Source of the DNA: an uncultured Eudoraea sp.
GTDB taxonomy: Bacteria > Bacteroidota > Bacteroidia > Flavobacteriales > Flavobacteriaceae
Assembly (NCBI RefSeq): GCF_947490415.1
Contig: NZ_CANLGX010000003.1
Coordinates: 1 to 64,000 of the forward strand
DNA length: 64,000 nt
Reading direction: 5' to 3'
Shown here in pieces: positions 7,387 through 62,972 of the stretch. The translations under genes and the position numbers were made by a program. The notes beneath the pieces were generated by a model. That model saw only the letters and a program-made list of their open reading frames with translations. It did no database searches and was not told the DNA's origin. Within the stretch, counting starts at the first letter, position 1; the number at the start of each line of letters is the position of its first letter.

Positions 7387-8337
7387 ATGGGCGAGACATT
7401 AATGACAACAAATTTTAATTTCCCTAACCAAATAAGTGTATACAAGGGAAAAGTTAGGGAAGTATATCGATTAAAAAATGATCTTTTGATCATGATAGCA
7501 ACAGACCGCTTGTCTGCTTTTGATGTTGTCATGCCTAAAGGAATTCCATACAAGGGCCAGATACTCAATCAGATTGCTACCAAAATGATGAAGGCTACTT
7601 CAGATATAGTTCCAAATTGGTTATTGGCCACTCCGGATCCAAATGTAGCTATTGGCCAGGCCTGCGAACCATTTAAGGTTGAAATGGTAATACGGGGATA
7701 TCTTTCGGGGCATGCGGCTCGTGAGTATAAAGCCGGGAAAAGAGCGCTCTGTGGTGTTCCGATGCCCGATGGAATGATTGAAAATGATAAGTTTAAAGAA
7801 CCAATCATAACCCCCGCTACAAAAGCCGAAGAGGGAAATCACGATGAAGACATTTCCAGAGAAGATATCATAAAGCGGGGTATTGTATCAGAGCAGGATT
7901 ATGAAATCCTCGAAAATTATACCAGGGCATTATATAAGAGAGGCACGGAAATTGCAAAACAGCGAGGTTTACTCCTGGTTGATACCAAATACGAATTTGG
8001 AAAAAACAAAGCAGGTGAAATTCTATTAATTGATGAAATTCATACTCCTGATTCTTCCCGCTACTTTTATGCGGAGGGATACGAAGAAAGACAGAGTAGG
8101 GGAGAAGGTCAAAAACAACTTTCTAAGGAATTTGTTCGTCAATGGTTGATTAGTAATGGATTTCAGGGGCTGGAAGGACAAACGGTTCCCGAAATGTCTG
8201 ATGAGTACATTATTACAGTTTCTGAGCGTTATATTGAATTGTACGAGAATATCACAGGAGAACCATTTGTAAAGGCAGATATCTCAAACATTCAAGAGCG
8301 TATTGAGAAGAACGTCTTGAAGTATTTGGAAAAGTAA
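7387..8337 (+). CDS. purC: Phosphoribosylaminoimidazole-succinocarboxamide synthase
   Basis: SAICAR synthetase, which joins aspartate to CAIR in de novo purine synthesis using ATP. Visible motifs are [27 protein letters not shown] split over residues 19-45, VRGYLSGH-type loop [16 protein letters not shown], and [10 protein letters not shown] followed by [14 protein letters not shown]. The length of 316 residues is normal for the Bacteroidota form. The first ATG is at 7387; a second at 7402 begins [10 protein letters not shown] and is an equally plausible start. Confidence 0.97.
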
Positions 8338-23267: not shown

Positions 23268-24578
23268 TCAGTTTAGTGCTTCTTTGTATATTCTAAGGCA
23301 GCGTTCACGGGCCATTTTATGATCCACCATCATTTGGGGATATGTCAATTCCTGTAGTTCAGGAACCCATTTATTGATGTATTCTTTTTGTTGATCAAAT
23401 TTTTCTACTTGTGTAAGGGGATTAAAGATCCTGAAATACGGCGCTGCATCTACGCCACTCCCTGCAGCCCATTGCCAGTTTCCAATGTTGCTGCTAAGTT
23501 CAAAGTCTAAAAGTTTTGAAGCAAAGTAAGCTTCTCCCCAACGCCAATCTATTAATAAATGCTTACAAAGAAAACTTGCTACCAGCATTCGTACCCGGTT
23601 ATGCATAAACCCCGTAGAATTAAGTTCCCTCATTCCCGCATCAACAAGGGGGTATCCTGTTTCCCCTTTTTTCCACATTTCAAATTCCTTTTCATCATTT
23701 CGCCATGGGATTCTATCATATTTTGGTTTAAAAGCTTTATAAACAGTATGCGGAAAATGCCATAAGATTTGCATAAAAAATTCGCGCCAAATCAATTCAT
23801 TTAAAAAAGTCTCATTCCTGGCACTTAGGGCTTTTAACACTGTTTGTCGCGTAGAAACGGTCCCAAATCGCAAATGGGGCCCTAACTTGGAGGTGCCTTT
23901 TTCTATGGCCGGAAAGTTTCTGGTTTTTTCATATGAATTAAGTAATGATGGAGAAATATCATAAGCAGGAACAGCAATTTCAGATCTTTTAAATCCTATT
24001 TCTTCCAGTAACAGATTAGGCAAATCTGCTTGTTTGAACACCCTGTTTAATAACGACTCGGAGTCATAAGCCATAACCGGCTTATCTGTTTTGAATTTTT
24101 CTTTCCACTTGCGCATATATGGCGTATAAACCACATAGGGTTTGCCATCATCTTTAACTATTTCATTCTCCTCAAAGATTACCTGATCTTTAAAAGTTTT
24201 GAATTCGATTCCGGATAATTTTAGTTCTTGTGCAATCTCACTATCCCTTTTTTGGGCATAAGGTTCATAATCCCTGTTGGTATATACATTTTGTATGTCA
24301 TATTGATTGGTAAGTTTTTTAAAAATATCCAGGGGATTGCCATAATAGATGCCAATTGAGCATTGATACTGCTCTTTCATCTTCTTTCTCATTTCCTGTA
24401 AAGAATCGTAAATGAAAGTAACCCGCGCATCATTTTCCGGAAGCGATTGAAGTATTTCAGTATCAAAAATAAAAATGGGCAATACCGGATGGCTTCCTTT
24501 CAGAGCATTGTACAGCCCGGCATTATCATGGAGCCTTAGGTCTCTCCGAAACCAAAAAACACTTACTTTTCCTTGCAT
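23268..24578 (-). CDS. Cryptochrome/photolyase family protein (CPD photolyase-like)
   Basis: The 436 residues have the standard two-domain plan. The N-terminal antenna domain starts VFWFRRDLRLHDNAGLYNAL; the C-terminal FAD domain shows GPHLRFGTVSTRQTVL, ELIWREFFMQILWHFPHTV, GYPLVDAGMRELNSTGFMHN and WQWAAGSGVDAAPYFRIFNP. This is the pattern of class I/III DNA photolyases, which repair UV dimers with light. It is the last gene of the SRPBCC - SDR - photolyase operon; its ATG directly abuts the SDR stop codon. The operon carries operator A at 25804-25833. Confidence 0.93.
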   Translation of the reverse strand: MQGKVSVFWFRRDLRLHDNAGLYNALKGSHPVLPIFIFDTEILQSLPENDARVTFIYDSLQEMRKKMKEQYQCSIGIYYGNPLDIFKKLTNQYDIQNVYTNRDYEPYAQKRDSEIAQELKLSGIEFKTFKDQVIFEENEIVKDDGKPYVVYTPYMRKWKEKFKTDKPVMAYDSESLLNRVFKQADLPNLLLEEIGFKRSEIAVPAYDISPSLLNSYEKTRNFPAIEKGTSKLGPHLRFGTVSTRQTVLKALSARNETFLNELIWREFFMQILWHFPHTVYKAFKPKYDRIPWRNDEKEFEMWKKGETGYPLVDAGMRELNSTGFMHNRVRMLVASFLCKHLLIDWRWGEAYFASKLLDFELSSNIGNWQWAAGSGVDAAPYFRIFNPLTQVEKFDQQKEYINKWVPELQELTYPQMMVDHKMARERCLRIYKEALN

Positions 24579-25274
24579 TTAGTTAATATTGAGGGTAGAC
24601 AAGCCTCCGTCTACACCTATTACCTGTCCGGTTATCCAACTGCTTTTATCACTAAGCAAAAAAGTCGCAATATTGGCAATATCCTCAGGATGGCCTACTC
24701 GTTTGAGAGGATGGCGTTCGGCCATACTTTCTTTTTTTCGATCATTATTTAATAAGCGGCCTGCCAGCTGGGTATCTACAAGAGAGGGAGCAATGACATT
24801 CGTTCGAACTTTAGGCGCATATTCTGCGGCTAGAGATTTTACAAAACCCTCTATAGCACCTTTGGCAGCAGATACACTTGTATGAAACGGCATTCCTGTA
24901 CCTACGGCGACCGTACTGAAGAACACCATACTAGAATTATCTGCCATCCGGCCGATGATGTCTTTAACAACCCTTACCATACTAAAAAAGTTAAGTTGCA
25001 TATCTTCCTCAAAGTTAGCCATGCTAAGCATTTTTAGAGGTTTTAAGTTAATACTGCCGGGGCAATATACAAATCCATGAAGTTCCTCAGGCAATTGCGC
25101 AGTATTCAATGAGTCAGTTAATGCGTCAAATTGAATATATTCTACGTTCAGATTCTTCAAACCATCTGCACTTCTGGACGCTACATAAATTGTATGGGTT
25201 TCCTGTAATTGTTTTACTATAGATAAACCAATACCATAGGATCCTCCGATTAATAATATATTTTTCTTCATCAT
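24579..25274 (-). CDS. SDR-family protein lacking the usual catalytic tyrosine
   Basis: A 231-residue Rossmann-fold protein: the nucleotide-binding loop is LLIGGSYGIGLSIVKQL and the C-terminus has SSWITGQVIGVDGG, both typical of short-chain dehydrogenases. In the usual YxxxK active-site position the sequence reads HTSVSAAKGAIEGF, so the lysine is kept but valine stands where tyrosine is expected. It may be an inactive, binding-only or altered enzyme. It overlaps the SRPBCC gene by 4 bases and abuts the photolyase gene, so it belongs to the light-linked operon. Confidence 0.88.
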   Translation of the reverse strand: MMKKNILLIGGSYGIGLSIVKQLQETHTIYVASRSADGLKNLNVEYIQFDALTDSLNTAQLPEELHGFVYCPGSINLKPLKMLSMANFEEDMQLNFFSMVRVVKDIIGRMADNSSMVFFSTVAVGTGMPFHTSVSAAKGAIEGFVKSLAAEYAPKVRTNVIAPSLVDTQLAGRLLNNDRKKESMAERHPLKRVGHPEDIANIATFLLSDKSSWITGQVIGVDGGLSTLNIN

Positions 25275-25771
25275 GAAATGGATTTTATACTTAATTTATT
25301 GGAGGAGTCCTTCATACGTCCGAAAATTTCCTCAAGTTTCATTTCGCGGTATGCGAATATTTTTTCCAGTTGTTTTTTAACCAGCATGGGATGTGCTAAT
25401 TGGCCCAAAATTCCAAAGGGTAACTTGTAGTCAATGATATCCTCCATTTCTACCCCACCTGAAACGGGATTTATAAAATGCTTGTGATGCCAAAGTGCAT
25501 ATGGGCCAAACCTTTGTTCATCTACAAAGTATTCACCTTCCTTAACATGTGTGATTTCGGTGACCCATTTTGTTGTTATTCCGGCAAACGGAGCAACTGA
25601 ATATTGAATGATCTGACCTGGAAACATATCCCTGTCGGCACCGTTTAAAATATGAAAACCCATGTGGTCCGGCGTGATAAGCTTCAGATTTGCGGGATTT
25701 GATAAAAAATTCCATGCCTCATCCTGAGTAATGGGTAAGGTTTGCCTGGAATGTAGTTGATATAACTTCAT
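25271..25771 (-). CDS. SRPBCC family protein
   Basis: A ligand-binding helix-grip protein of about 166 residues. I chose the ATG at 25771 (MKLYQLHSRQTLPITQDEAW), which fits the family start. An upstream ATG at 25834 would place codons inside the operator. Landmarks are LTIPDHMGFHI-like KLITPDHMGFHILNG, WVTEITHVKEGEYFVDEQRFGP split around residue 75, and the end FAYREMKLEEIF. It is first in the SRPBCC - SDR - photolyase operon, a frequent flavobacterial arrangement; the ligand is unknown. Confidence 0.88.
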   Translation of the reverse strand: MKLYQLHSRQTLPITQDEAWNFLSNPANLKLITPDHMGFHILNGADRDMFPGQIIQYSVAPFAGITTKWVTEITHVKEGEYFVDEQRFGPYALWHHKHFINPVSGGVEMEDIIDYKLPFGILGQLAHPMLVKKQLEKIFAYREMKLEEIFGRMKDSSNKLSIKSIS

Positions 25772-25785
25772 TAAAATGTTTTTAA

Positions 25786-25793
25786 CAAAATTA
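25786..25793 (-). promoter_or_regulatory. -7 box (TAATTTTG) of the SRPBCC-SDR-photolyase operon
   Basis: On the minus strand TAATTTTG matches TAnnTTTG, 14 bases before the chosen start codon. The expected -33 region falls inside operator A. Confidence 0.6.
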
Positions 25794-25803
25794 AGAGCAA
25801 TAT

Positions 25804-25833
25804 TGTTTAATAAAAAATTAAATGTGTTAAACA
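25804..25833. promoter_or_regulatory. Operator A: 30-bp inverted repeat shared with the second photolyase operon
   Basis: Arms TGTTTAAT (25804-25811) and GTTAAACA (25826-25833) are separated by 14 AT-rich bases; extended by one base outward the arms are TTGTTTAA and TTAAACAA. The same 30-bp layout recurs at 62943-62972, with 25 of 30 positions identical by hand alignment. It lies 10 bp upstream of the -7 box and covers the -33 position, as expected for a repressor site. Confidence 0.75.
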
Positions 25834-57185: not shown

Positions 57186-57422
57186 ATGTTTGCTATGGAT
57201 TTAATAAATGAAGCACTTGCCTTTGAGAAAGCCAAAATGAATAATATGTCTACTAGTGACAGGGTGGCTGCAACAAGAGAAGCGAAACGTCTGATATTAG
57301 CTTTAAACGAGATTTATAAGAAATCTAAGGATACCAATCTTATGGATATAATGAAACGTTTAACAGTAAAGAAGAAAAAAATTGAGATACGCTTAAAAGG
57401 CAGACCTGATACAGCATTTTAA
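57186..57422 (+). CDS. Small helical hypothetical protein
   Basis: About 78 residues from the ATG at 57186 (57195 and GTG 57174 are alternatives). The sequence is predicted fully helical and strongly charged: MDLINEALAFEKAKMNNMST, then VAATREAKRLILALNEIYKK and a basic tail (KRLTVKKKKIEIRLKGRPD). The even codon pattern suggests a real gene. Family and function are not known to me. Confidence 0.65.
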   Translation: MFAMDLINEALAFEKAKMNNMSTSDRVAATREAKRLILALNEIYKKSKDTNLMDIMKRLTVKKKKIEIRLKGRPDTAF

Positions 57423-57639: not shown

Positions 57640-58890
57640 TTAAATAGAACTTGAAATCGTTTCAAGAATGCCTAATGCTGCTCTTTCTCCTGCAATCATT
57701 GCGGCGTTCAATGAACCATTCAGTTGCGTATCTCCGGCAAGAAAAATACCTGTAGTCAATCTGGTTTCTGACGGATGCATTTCGTATTGTAATCCATCCA
57801 GTATTGGCAGAGCCTGAGTTATGCAATAGTGTTTTATAAACGTATAAGAATCTGAACCACAATATTGTTGAAGTTCTTTTTGAATTCGCATTATTAATGC
57901 TTCTTCCGATAAACCGTGTTCCTTTACTACGGTAACAGATAATAATTCCTTCTTGCCTATTGATTCTGACGCCAGACTAGTATGGTAAAAAATATTATTA
58001 ATAAGGGCATCACTATCAGAAATAAGACCAATAAGCGGTTTCTCAATAGTTCTATTATTAGTTTCAAAATATAACGTATCACAAGATTTCCACTTAGTCT
58101 CTTTATTTTTTAGATTTAATACAAGTACACCGGGTTCTGTAGCGATGATTGTAAAGTGGCTCTCCAGTTCTGTTCCTTCTGCAAGAAATATTTTGTGGTC
58201 TTCCACAGATTTGACCTTTGTGTTGAATTGAAAGGTCGTTTGTTTTAAATTTTCCTTTAGTTGTTTTGGGATAGCTTCAATACCAGCTTTAGGCAATGTG
58301 GCAAAGCCTTCTCCAAACATTTTATAAACAAATTCAAACATTCTGCTTGATGTTTCCAATTCAGGTTCGAGGAATATTCCACTAAAGAAAGGTTTAAAGA
58401 ATTGAGAAATCATTTCCTCTGAAAAACCGAAATCCAATAAATATTGAAATGTTGTTTTTTCAGTTTTTTCGAAAGTTTCAGTTAAGGTCACTTTCTTTAA
58501 AAGTCTGTTTAGCCTGAGTACTTTCAATTTGTCCGAAAACGTTCCAATACCCGAAAACAATGTTGGAATGAGTAAGGATAAATTTCTTAAAGGATCACCA
58601 ATATTTTTTTTCTTACCATTATGAAAGATAGTTGCTCCAGGAATAAATTTCTGTAATTCCAATGCGTCGAGATTCAAATATTTCTGTGCTGCGGGATATG
58701 CCGTAAGTAATACCTGAAATCCGTGATCTAATTGGTAACCGTCTATTATATCTGTTTTAACTCTTCCACCAACTCTGTCGGTAGCTTCAATAATAACAGG
58801 ACTATAACCATTATCTTCTAAAACTCTCGCAGCTACAAGTCCGCTTACTCCGGCGCCAATGATATGTATTTTATAGTCTTGTTTATTCAT
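57640..58890 (-). CDS. NAD(P)/FAD-dependent oxidoreductase (amine-oxidase/desaturase-like)
   Basis: 416 residues. The FAD-binding Rossmann start is KIHIIGAGVSGLVAARVLED (dinucleotide GxGxxG), then IIEATDRVGGRVKTDIIDGY and GFQVLLTAYPAAQKYL. The C-terminal FAD motif is TGIFLAGDTQLNGSLNAAMI. Relatives include phytoene desaturase and protoporphyrinogen-oxidase-like enzymes; in this light-linked operon a role in pigment or quinone metabolism is plausible but inferred. It lies 119 bases downstream of the membrane-protein gene and may have its own promoter. Confidence 0.88.
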   Translation of the reverse strand: MNKQDYKIHIIGAGVSGLVAARVLEDNGYSPVIIEATDRVGGRVKTDIIDGYQLDHGFQVLLTAYPAAQKYLNLDALELQKFIPGATIFHNGKKKNIGDPLRNLSLLIPTLFSGIGTFSDKLKVLRLNRLLKKVTLTETFEKTEKTTFQYLLDFGFSEEMISQFFKPFFSGIFLEPELETSSRMFEFVYKMFGEGFATLPKAGIEAIPKQLKENLKQTTFQFNTKVKSVEDHKIFLAEGTELESHFTIIATEPGVLVLNLKNKETKWKSCDTLYFETNNRTIEKPLIGLISDSDALINNIFYHTSLASESIGKKELLSVTVVKEHGLSEEALIMRIQKELQQYCGSDSYTFIKHYCITQALPILDGLQYEMHPSETRLTTGIFLAGDTQLNGSLNAAMIAGERAALGILETISSSI

Positions 58891-59009: not shown

Positions 59010-59420
59010 TTACAGCTTGTTATATATACTCCAACAGAATATAAGTGTCCATAAGATTGTTCGCAACCAATTCCGTTTCACTAATTGTTTCAGGAGTGTT
59101 ATGTTGCTGTTATTTTTAAATATTTGATTATGGATAGGAACAAATTGTAAAAAGGTGGAAGCCCAAACTGCAATTACTAATGTAAGACTAACGATTGTTT
59201 CAATGGCCTGAAATTGGACCAATTGAATAACAGCAAGAATCAATTGACCAAACATTAAGGGAATTACTATTAAAGAAAGTCTTGAAGTATAGTGTTTATG
59301 CCATTTCATTAAATTATCCTTTTCATAATACAGAAAACCAGGATATACAACGAGTTGTATCATCCAAATAAGGACAACAAGTCCTGCGTCAAAAAGCAAT
59401 CTTATCGTATCTGTTTCCAT
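59010..59420 (-). CDS. Small four-helix membrane protein in the photolyase operon
   Basis: 136 residues, four predicted helices: about 10-30, 48-68, 73-95 and 117-134. A conserved-looking His-rich loop (MKWHKHYTSRLSLIVIPLMF) joins the first two helices. I cannot name the family. It follows the cluster-less photolyase relative by 8 bases, so it is co-transcribed; its role in light response or DNA repair is unknown. Confidence 0.75.
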   Translation of the reverse strand: METDTIRLLFDAGLVVLIWMIQLVVYPGFLYYEKDNLMKWHKHYTSRLSLIVIPLMFGQLILAVIQLVQFQAIETIVSLTLVIAVWASTFLQFVPIHNQIFKNNSNITLLKQLVKRNWLRTILWTLIFCWSIYNKL

Positions 59421-60913: not shown

Positions 60914-62025
60914 AATGCAATTTCTTTTTTACATTTTTTCCAAAAAGCAAAGAAAGATTGATAGTAGCCTCTTACAGAAAAAATCCAATCTCTTTTGGTT
61001 TCAATGCCCTTGTAATGTTTGTTTAATGGATGCTCTTTATAATAGATGCTCCCAAATTTATAAGCAGTCGTAAGTTCATTAAATTCTCCCACATATAGTT
61101 GCATATTCCCTATGTTTTTTGAAAGGTCAATTATAAAATCAATAGTCTTTTGAGACACAGGATATTGCTTAAAATGCGAAGGTTCCAGCAAGAGAATTCG
61201 ATTTGCAGAAAGCTCCTTTTTCCAAATGGGGTCTAAGTTGTAGAAATTATAAATAAGCGCTGGAAGTGCTGTATTTATTTTTATGGGTTTTTGCTCAGGA
61301 AGTGGTGTTGTTAACTCTAAAATTTCCGAAGCAAGCAGCACCTCTGGTATGGGTAAGTTTTCAAAATCATCATAGGATATATCAAGAAAAGTTCCTGTTT
61401 GATTACTATGGCAAAATTTATTGATGTTCTCCTGATTTGCATAATACTTCTTATTGCTGTTTGTGCCTGCCACCCATTGCCAACTAAGAGCATTGCTTGC
61501 CCAATCTGCATCTAGCAAATGATAGTACATCCATTGCGCAGGTGCTTTCCAATGGTTTTGAGCTACATTGCAGGCAATCGATGCAATGTACATTCGTAAA
61601 TGATTATGCAGGTAGCCGGTTTTGTAAAATTGATCAATAGCATTGTCGATAGCTTGAATACCCGTATCCGCAGCAGGCAAAGCCATAGAAAGCCCCTTGG
61701 TAATAACTGGCACTTGTAGTTGCTTTAAGTCTTGATTAATAGCATCGCCTTTGGCAATCCATACCAGTTGCCAATAATCCCGCCACGCTAATTCTTGAAC
61801 AAATTTTAAAATAGAATCAAGATGAAAACCACGCTTTAATAATTCTTGATAGACAAACTTAGTGGAAATAACACCTCGAGAAATATAAGGCGATAGATAA
61901 CTTACTGCACCATCCAGATAGTTTCTAGACGGGCCATAGGCAACTGGATCTATTGTTGCTATTCTCTCGAGTATAGCTTCAAATGTTGTTGGAAAATACG
62001 CTTTTGTATTTGTTTTATCATACAT
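60910..62025 (-). CDS. Short photolyase-like protein: FAD domain first, extra C-terminal domain
   Basis: 371 residues. Unlike normal photolyases there is no N-terminal antenna domain; the FAD domain begins almost at once (YLSPYISRGVISTKFVYQEL). Its landmarks are FVQELAWRDYWQLVWIAKGD, GYLHNHLRMYIASIACNVAQ, and HLLDADWASNALSWQWVAGT. Instead of the usual DAAPYFRIFNP the sequence continues NSNKKYYANQENINKF. Residues about 250-371 form a separate alpha-beta region (NRILLLEPSHFKQYPVSQKT). It overlaps both neighbours (1 and 4 bases). Confidence 0.88.
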   Translation of the reverse strand: MYDKTNTKAYFPTTFEAILERIATIDPVAYGPSRNYLDGAVSYLSPYISRGVISTKFVYQELLKRGFHLDSILKFVQELAWRDYWQLVWIAKGDAINQDLKQLQVPVITKGLSMALPAADTGIQAIDNAIDQFYKTGYLHNHLRMYIASIACNVAQNHWKAPAQWMYYHLLDADWASNALSWQWVAGTNSNKKYYANQENINKFCHSNQTGTFLDISYDDFENLPIPEVLLASEILELTTPLPEQKPIKINTALPALIYNFYNLDPIWKKELSANRILLLEPSHFKQYPVSQKTIDFIIDLSKNIGNMQLYVGEFNELTTAYKFGSIYYKEHPLNKHYKGIETKRDWIFSVRGYYQSFFAFWKKCKKEIAF

Positions 62026-62333
62026 TAACGCTTACTTATTTTATTACCGGAAATAGCTCTTTGTCTCGAGCATTTAAAGCGCGTGATATCTTCGCTTCGT
62101 TTTTTTAAGTGTTTTGTACTTACGCCACTATTAACACGTTTTCTCCAGCGTTTAAAACTAGATTCCTTAAGATTGCCACGCATCAATTTAATAACTTCTT
62201 TTTCTGGCAGTCCAAACTGAAATTCTATGGCTTCAAAGGGTGTTCTGTCTTCCCAGGCCATTTCGATGATCCTATCTAATTGTCTTTCTGTCAGTTCTTT
62301 TTCCAATATAATTTCTAAACTACTTTTTCCCAA
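62025..62333 (-). CDS. TIGR03643 (DUF2805) family protein
   Basis: 102 residues, basic. The N-terminal ELTERQLDRIIEMAWEDRTP and FEAIEFQFGLPEKEVIKLMR blocks match the TIGR03643/DUF2805 family, a helix-turn-helix-like small protein often next to photolyase genes. The C-terminal half is rich in Lys/Arg (FKRWRKRVNSGVSTKHLKKR), suggesting nucleic-acid binding. It overlaps the DUF2452 gene by 19 bases and the photolyase gene by 1 base. Confidence 0.85.
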   Translation of the reverse strand: MGKSSLEIILEKELTERQLDRIIEMAWEDRTPFEAIEFQFGLPEKEVIKLMRGNLKESSFKRWRKRVNSGVSTKHLKKRSEDITRFKCSRQRAISGNKISKR

Positions 62334-62719
62334 ATTTGATCAGTATTTAAATAGAAACTTCCCAGTGAATTAAAGTTGCATTGATCCGGTGCGATAATGG
62401 ATAAAAAAGTCTCGTTATTATCTCTTTTGTATAAATGATAGACCTCACCTATAAGGGGTTCAAAGGTAAACTTTGCGCTATAAATCAGGTTGTTATATTC
62501 AAATTCTTGCATTAATTGCTCATACTGCGCTCTTATTTCCAGATATCTTGTTTGAACCCTGTGGTTCAGGTTATTAATGCTTCTGTTTTTCCAAGCAATA
62601 GTATCTGGTGTTGTAATTACCGGTGCGCCAACATTCGTCGCGTATGGTTTTAGAAAAGCATCGTATTTTTGCATTTCATTATCAAAAACAACACTATCTG
62701 GTTTCTTTTTATCGGTCAT
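62315..62719 (-). CDS. DUF2452 domain-containing protein
   Basis: 134 residues, acidic to neutral. It has KPDSVVFDNEMQKYDAFLKP, then YATNVGAPVITTPDTIAWK, and the later strands TFEPLIGEVYHLYKRDNNET and LSIIAPDQCNFNSLGSFYL, the DUF2452 pattern known from Bacteroidota and eukaryotes. Function unknown. Its ATG is directly next to the stop of the 55-residue gene, within the light-linked operon. Confidence 0.85.
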   Translation of the reverse strand: MTDKKKPDSVVFDNEMQKYDAFLKPYATNVGAPVITTPDTIAWKNRSINNLNHRVQTRYLEIRAQYEQLMQEFEYNNLIYSAKFTFEPLIGEVYHLYKRDNNETFLSIIAPDQCNFNSLGSFYLNTDQIWEKVV

Positions 62720-62887
62720 CTATAACTCTTGCGCTTCTATTTTTTTCATAATCTCTTCCGCTTCATAAGCCTTTTGGTCGCTTAATTTTCTGTTACTGGT
62801 AGAAAGATCATAGGATTCTTTCATAAGCTTTTGATATTGCTCGTGTAACTTATCTTTTTCTGATTTCTTTTTAAATAATCCAAACAT
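62720..62887 (-). CDS. Lacal_2735 family small protein (first gene of the light-linked operon)
   Basis: 55 residues, missed by size filters. It reads MFGLFKKKSEKDKLHEQYQK, continues LMKESYDLSTSNRKLSDQKA and ends YEAEEIMKKIEAQEL, matching the small, all-helical Lacal_2735 family of flavobacteria. Function unknown. The stop codon directly abuts the DUF2452 ATG. Upstream are a TATCTTTG -7 box and operator B. Confidence 0.88.
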   Translation of the reverse strand: MFGLFKKKSEKDKLHEQYQKLMKESYDLSTSNRKLSDQKAYEAEEIMKKIEAQEL

Positions 62888-62929: not shown

Positions 62930-62937
62930 CAAAGATA
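62930..62937 (-). promoter_or_regulatory. -7 box (TATCTTTG) of the second photolyase operon
   Basis: On the minus strand TATCTTTG matches TAnnTTTG, 42 bases before the Lacal_2735 start codon. The -33 position falls within operator B. Confidence 0.65.
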
Positions 62938-62942
62938 CAAAA

Positions 62943-62972
62943 TGTTTAACTAAAAATAATATATGTTAAACA
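62943..62972. promoter_or_regulatory. Operator B: 30-bp inverted repeat shared with the first photolyase operon
   Basis: Perfect arms TGTTTAAC (62943-62950) and GTTAAACA (62965-62972) around 14 AT-rich bases. Geometry equals operator A at 25804-25833. It lies 5 bp upstream of the -7 box and would cover the -33 site. Confidence 0.78.

Follow-up and report, generated by a model that had tools for sequence, protein, structure and literature searches.

The 30-bp inverted repeat TGTTTAA-N16-TTAAACA, found in front of two photolyase-type operons in the 64-kb stretch of DNA analysed here (the window), is interpreted, with a probability of roughly 0.8, as an operator through which a CarH-like MerR/B12 protein controls a photoprotection regulon; the binding, the repression, the B12 ligand and the light signal are inferred. 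The operator and the regulon are real, and the evidence consists of the operator with its spacing and promoter registers, the content of the regulon, and the co-occurrence and linkage of the sites with carH; there are no binding, expression or light data.

The two operators of the window (Table 1), compared by eye, are identical at 25 of 30 positions. A pattern scan finds TGTTTAAY-N14-GTTAAACA at these two places only in the 64 kb, and 100 shuffles of the window gave no match. The preliminary description had reported this identity and the exact reading of both sites, the absence of any other copy in the window, and a photolyase-type operon behind each site, all of which is borne out by the letters, the pattern scan and the minus-strand operons present at both places. 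Operon 1 (SRPBCC-SDR-photolyase) extends from 25771 to 23268, and operon 2 (small ORF-DUF2452-TIGR03643-FAD_binding_7-DPRP) from 62887 to 59429. The first ORF of the latter is presumably Lacal_2735-like. From its strand and close spacing, the small membrane-type protein gene probably belongs to operon 2 as well, and the amine oxidase/CrtI-like flavoprotein gene is possibly its last member. On the opposite strand, a small protein of about 75 amino acids, assigned by eye to the F13 family, resembles, again by eye, another of about this length at about 7419-7640 of locus L024; in related genomes, this family lies within the TIGR03643-folE operon.

Table 1. Features of the two operons with their operators and promoter elements, and the small RNA of the same genome (positions are those of the window unless a contig is named).
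Feature	Position	Strand	Basis or remark
Operator 1, TGTTTAA-N16-TTAAACA	25804..25833	minus, serves minus-strand operon	exact genome match; site before the same operon in 7 other genomes of the genus
-7-like element TAATTTTG	25786..25793	minus	10 bp after operator 1
SRPBCC-like protein, operon 1 first gene	25271..25771	minus	weak Polyketide_cyc match, below cut-off
Short-chain dehydrogenase, operon 1	24579..25274	minus	domain match
DNA photolyase, operon 1	23268..24578	minus	only PF00875 match in the genome
Operator 2	62943..62972	minus, serves minus-strand operon	exact genome match; spacing scan of TIGR03643 loci
-7-like element TATCTTTG	62930..62937	minus	5 bp after operator 2
Small ORF, 55 aa, operon 2 first gene	62720..62887	minus	recognised by eye
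DUF2452 protein, operon 2	62315..62719	minus	domain match
TIGR03643/DUF2805 protein, operon 2	62025..62333	minus	family match
FAD_binding_7 photolyase-type protein, 371 aa	60910..62025	minus	no N-terminal antenna domain found
DPRP + FAD_binding_7 photolyase-related protein, 494 aa	59429..60913	minus	domain matches
Small membrane-type protein	59010..59420	minus	close spacing, same strand
Amine oxidase/CrtI-like flavoprotein	57640..58890	minus	domain matches
Small protein, F13 family by eye	57195..57422	plus	only a two-mismatch site upstream
Small RNA, ~115 nt	C4:527302-527419 = L023:8303-8420	minus	conserved stretch ending in terminator

Throughout the 3.89-Mb genome, the exact pattern TGTTTAA-N16-TTAAACA occurs at three places, C3:25804, C3:62943 and C4:527433, and not at the many that, according to the preliminary description, would have spoken against a shared operator. 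Both 7-base halves are also exact with a spacer of 17 at C4:177469 and of 18 at C1:691741 in a looser scan. Overall, this looser scan of the genome (TGTTTA-N17 to N20-TAAACA) shows no excess (10 matches vs. 11 in the control), nor does the N16 pattern with two mismatches (86 vs. 84). As loose counts match the controls, only exact N16 copies, or weaker ones that are otherwise supported, can be considered meaningful. The site C4:177469 was, therefore, retained, since it precedes a gene for a fasciclin-domain protein and contains a -7 element, TAGTTTTG; other weak sites of this genome were ignored unless supported by their position. One-mismatch copies are found before folE (C5:214595 and C5:214701) and before a small gene (C3:285206). 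The genome counts three folE matches (C3:499007, C5:215009, C2:268320), and, when the C5 and C3 copies were compared, operator-like sites were seen only at C5. Within the genus, 7 of 8 genomes have a one-mismatch site before the light-type folE, while 8 housekeeping folE genes have no site within two mismatches upstream. Divergent to folE at C5 stands an ORF resembling, by eye, the 55-aa ORF of operon 2. Another one-mismatch site, C3:514989-515018, is located between a peroxiredoxin gene and an HhH-GPD DNA repair gene.

In 80 genomes (this one and 79 relatives), the exact pattern is present 94 times, distributed over 41 genomes, against 2 occurrences of the reversed control (table summed by hand). 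Its spacing is conserved too: at the TIGR03643 loci (the best 30 of 39 places, the window's own included), a spacing of 16 gave matches with at most one mismatch at 14 of 30, the other spacings from 4 to 33 only 0 to 2, and the reversed control 0–1. The site is, thus, kept upstream of orthologous photolyase-type operons in relatives, as the preliminary description had proposed to verify, and its suggestion of one shared operator and one photoprotection regulon draws support, across many genera, from the conservation of the site, its spacing, the genes behind it and its promoter geometry.

This geometry is defined relative to the -7 element of Bacteroidetes (TAnnTTTG). The element begins 5 bp after the operator at 8 of 11 small-RNA sites, 9 of 11 TetR sites, 8 of 9 TIGR03643-type sites and 3 of 5 sites of the 55-aa ORF; these counts include operator 2 and allow another last base, the strict counts being 7, 4, 7 and 3, respectively. 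A distance of 10 bp characterizes the operon 1 sites of the same genus (7 of 7, and also operator 1 itself). The element is found inside the operator, abutting the right half-site, at 7 of 8 crtI sites, at the crtW-like site and at 4 of 11 fasciclin sites. The recurring promoter registers are +5, -15 and +10, and the overlap between operator and -7 element would suit a repressor.

The genes behind the sites were read at 77 places, using a slightly looser pattern without the Y/R positions and leaving out the site at 25804; of the 94 exact matches, the reading covered only those places that had been listed and retrieved. Gene classes were assigned once the sites had been inspected, without a random-gene control, and the small-DUF and 55-aa-ORF families were recognised by eye. 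The nearest genes are the small RNA, TetR_C-ABC1 kinase operons and fasciclin-domain proteins (11 sites each), operons of a 142-aa protein with TIGR03643 and sometimes folE (9), crtI(-crtB-crtZ) (8), SRPBCC-SDR-photolyase operons (7), 55-aa ORF operons (5), and others (15). Eight of these 15 also fit the regulon (crtW-like genes, folE, a sigma factor with crtI, carH itself and similar). By hand sorting, 70 of the 77 sites, or 59 without the fasciclin group, are consistent with the regulon and 7 precede other genes. At G061:C1:1649881 and G072:C52:10032, an exact site lies between genes that look PAS-domain-like and ECF-sigma-like by eye, followed by crtI. The TetR_C_23 protein (L023:7565-8224 and homologues) and an ABC1 kinase form a pair that in many cases follows the operator.

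The third exact site of the genome, C4:527433, precedes no gene but a conserved stretch that is interpreted as a small RNA. Alignment and folding give a 5' hairpin carrying CTRTGAA in its loop, an unpaired core TTATTTATTGGTTAGGTTGTTT (also given as ATTGGTTAGGTTG) and a terminator. With RNAalifold, the 15-sequence alignment yields the terminator only, and a closer set of 10 sequences yields both hairpin and terminator. A covariance model built on these 10 sequences has matches in 56 of the 296 genomes searched at E 0.01, some of which are weak. Among the 52 of 60 matches that were read, 44 contain GGTTAGGTT, and a spacing-16 operator is present within 80 nt upstream in exact form in 35, with one mismatch in 6 and with two in 1. 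The remaining 10 have no such operator, although one of them (G006) has both half-sites at a spacing of 17. Without the 10 sequences behind the model and another 5 genomes known beforehand via operator or TetR loci, 27 of 37 have an operator with at most one mismatch (hand count). All 25 pairs change on both sides, and 94.7% of cells pair, vs. 46–55% when slid, a figure that leans towards the model because the alignment was fitted to it. In Rfam, searched with this genome's copy only, the best score was 19.1 bits against a gathering threshold of 105, and hits with E values of 0.7 or above were attributed to chance. A peptide gene was considered and rejected, because the frame, 35 aa long in this genome, is cut off within 3 to 10 codons in G020, G035, G046 and G027, whereas both the nucleotides and the helices are conserved. 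A very short leader ORF, starting with ATG or sometimes GTG, remains possible. A search of this genome for complements of the core gave 16 matches vs. 24 in the control, and no target is, therefore, claimed. In G020 and G027, the site and the small RNA are retained in the absence of the TetR gene.

The best candidate for the regulator is a CarH-like protein, for which no binding data exist. The preliminary description had found no MerR/B12 gene in the window; of two MerR_1 matches in the genome, the CarH-like one lies outside it, at C4:491316-492263. The protein matches PF13411 (MerR_1, N-terminal DNA-binding, E 7.8e-14) and PF02607 (B12-binding_2 helical bundle, 38.2 bits vs. a cut-off of 23). 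The domain search did not report PF02310 at this locus, despite the fold match to CarH of Thermus thermophilus (TtCarH), its best solved relative (E 3e-12). The predicted fold (mean pLDDT 81) has 5c8e as best PDB match (E 8e-13, TM-score 0.52), and, with 72.8 bits, the protein does not reach the NCBIfam CarH equivalog cut-off of 400. As three other proteins with a B12-binding domain are encoded in the genome, cobalamin use is plausible. The gene is followed by crtI-crtB-crtZ, and crtI is present at 78 of 80 named carH loci.

Across the 80 genomes, 39 of the 56 that encode CarH carry the exact motif, vs. 2 of the 24 that do not (p 3e-7); at a completeness of at least 90%, the figures are 34 of 48 vs. 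0 of 19. A CarH match with an E value above 1e-30 was scored as no CarH, which applies to G032, G056, G069 and G073, the last of which may be a fragment. These co-occurrence tests ignore phylogeny and rely on presence tables compiled by hand. In 17 of the 56 genomes with a CarH-like protein there is no exact motif, and some of these proteins have a visibly different DNA-binding region. For TIGR03643, which was rejected as a regulator, the motif is present in 23 of 37 genomes with it vs. 18 of 43 without. None of the six genomes that match TetR or TIGR03643 while lacking CarH has an exact motif.

Linkage provides further support. Eight of the 80 genomes have an exact site between carH and crtI. 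Among the named carH loci (the best 80 of at least 582), 21, including loci from Flavobacterium, Kordia and Psychroserpens, have a site near carH, which in 18 is just downstream (N16, at most one mismatch) and in all 18 is followed by crtI; the reversed control at spacing 16 gave 0 of 80. An exact spacing-17 copy occupies the carH-crtI gap at 5 loci, one of which (L349) was already counted for an upstream site. A signal at spacing 26 near carH was set aside, being read as largely due to the beginning of the carH reading frame, and some matches at spacing 17 fall inside carH. The 30 nearest named relatives of this CarH have no site near carH at spacing 16 and one at spacing 17, and the carH-crt region of this genome itself has no site with at most one mismatch; the crt operon, therefore, seems to have left the regulon in this clade. 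The earlier guess of a CarH/LitR-type regulator is, thus, well supported, as a CarH-like gene is encoded and its presence predicts the motif across genomes; binding, B12 and light are not demonstrated. A MerR/B12 gene close to the sites, which the preliminary description had proposed to look for, is present in several genera, where sites lie between carH and crtI; in this clade, carH is not linked to the operator.

Other explanations have to be weighed against this one. That the sites are merely chance AT-rich palindromes is practically untenable: when two mismatches are allowed, or the halves are shortened and the spacer is set at 17 to 20, the counts in this genome do equal those of controls, but the exact copies, the preferred spacing and the recurring promoter registers speak against it. 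The TetR_C_23 protein might instead be the regulator, repressing itself and other operons. Its gene stands directly behind 11 of the 77 sites, and the motif tracks it (31 of 39 genomes with TetR vs. 10 of 41 without, p 8e-7), so that CarH and TetR presence both correlate with the motif, which counts against the CarH reading. Nevertheless, the motif occurs in ten genomes that lack the TetR_C_23 protein; G028, for example, has four sites, of which one precedes crtI. Neither of the two genomes that encode TetR without CarH carries an exact copy, and, in the genus of this genome, a terminator and the RNA stand between site and TetR_C_23 gene. Pfam at E 0.001 reports for this protein the C-terminal domain only, with no TetR_N helix-turn-helix, and its N-terminal domain may have lost the ability to bind DNA. 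Such a role is, thus, very unlikely. A response to oxidative or other stress, with CarH presence merely tracking lifestyle, appears highly improbable: some of the genes, fasciclin among them, have no obvious connection to light, and 7 of the 77 sites precede unrelated ones, but the carH-crtI gap sites and the photolyase and carotenoid content favour light.

A rather unlikely variant places the CarH-like protein on the operator and leaves light sensing to a partner, such as the BLUF protein at C3:288875 (L024:10876-11325), encoded about 3.7 kb from the candidate site C3:285206; in Pseudomonas, a LOV protein is described as controlling a LitR (PMC9758184). This question depends on the cobalamin pocket, around which TtCarH is described as placing Trp131, Glu141, His132 and His177 (PMC10442372). 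In 129 CarH-like sequences, the equivalents of Trp131, Glu141 and His177 are invariant, which would be odd if no cobalamin were bound, and position 142 carries His in 127; at position 132, by contrast, 118 sequences have Gln and only 3 have His. H132A TtCarH is reported to stay mostly tetrameric in the light, an earlier report having differed (PMC10442372). With Gln132, either flavobacterial CarH releases DNA in another way, or a partner supplies the light signal.

The CarH-like protein, the preferred regulator, has counterparts elsewhere; the comparisons below are limited to the accessible portions of the papers cited. The system works like CarH/LitR, with binding, B12 and light inferred. It shares with CarH of Thermus thermophilus, Bacillus megaterium and myxobacteria the MerR domain, helical bundle and B12 Rossmann domain (PMC9304148, PMC10442372), the crt neighbourhood, an operator over promoter elements, and Trp131/Glu141/His177 in the pocket. 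CarH operators are described as tandem 11-bp direct repeats with TnnACA (PMC9304148), and the half-site TAAACA fits this core. The tandem arrangement was looked for and is not seen, the sites consisting of inverted TGTTTA/TAAACA at 18–19 bp; 11-bp direct repeats were seen, by eye, only at C3:285206. The differences from CarH are, thus, a 30-bp inverted repeat with N16 (sometimes N17) in place of three or four tandem repeats, Gln for His132, and a regulon extending to photolyases, folE, fasciclin proteins and a small RNA. As His132 and tandem repeats were tested for and are lacking, the system was not filed as canonical CarH.

Class II LitR of Pseudomonas (PplR1/PmlR2) likewise governs a light regulon with photolyase, short-chain dehydrogenase, FAD oxidoreductase, FolE and cryptochrome-like genes, through two separated half-sites near -35; it differs in its consensus, T(G/A)TACA-N12-TGTA(C/T)A, in lacking the second B12 domain and in being served by a LOV protein, and the accessible text does not name crt genes in its regulon (PMC9758184). 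Inverted repeats, as found here, are also noted at the operator of CarA in Myxococcus xanthus, which, however, acts without B12, and are degenerate in most of its relatives (PMC9304148). Among flavobacteria, light induces carotenoid genes in Chryseobacterium lacus, for which the part of the article at hand gives no operator and only speculates on the regulator (PMC7064467). MliR of the marine flavobacterium Bizionia argentinensis is MerR-like too, but is a coiled-coil MerR/TnrA-like regulator of iron homeostasis, with no B12-binding domain mentioned in the available passages (PMC9478572).

In the preferred reading, the CarH-like protein, presumably with adenosylcobalamin, would occupy both TAAACA half-sites in the dark and block transcription by masking either the -33 region or the -7 element. 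Light would break the cobalamin bond and free the promoter, switching on photolyases, carotenoid genes, an extra GTP cyclohydrolase I, fasciclin-domain proteins and the small RNA. That this amounts to a Flavobacteriaceae CarH-type B12 photoreceptor without His132, acting on an inverted 30-bp operator and on a regulon with an undescribed, structured small RNA of about 115 nt, is about an even bet. Judged from sequence alone, the inverted operator, Gln132 and the presence in the regulon of a small RNA above no Rfam threshold appear to be new. No description of the operator, of a Flavobacteriaceae CarH regulon or of the small RNA was recognised in open-licence papers, where the operator letters were not queried.

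Light control in Flavobacteriaceae is little known, one article speaking of an "unknown pattern" (PMC7064467). The operator, the promoter registers and the regulator candidate now make light responses in this family testable. The natural Gln132 form bears on the disputed need for His132 in light release by CarH. The small RNA may constitute a post-transcriptional arm and, if the above holds true, would be a light-controlled riboregulator.
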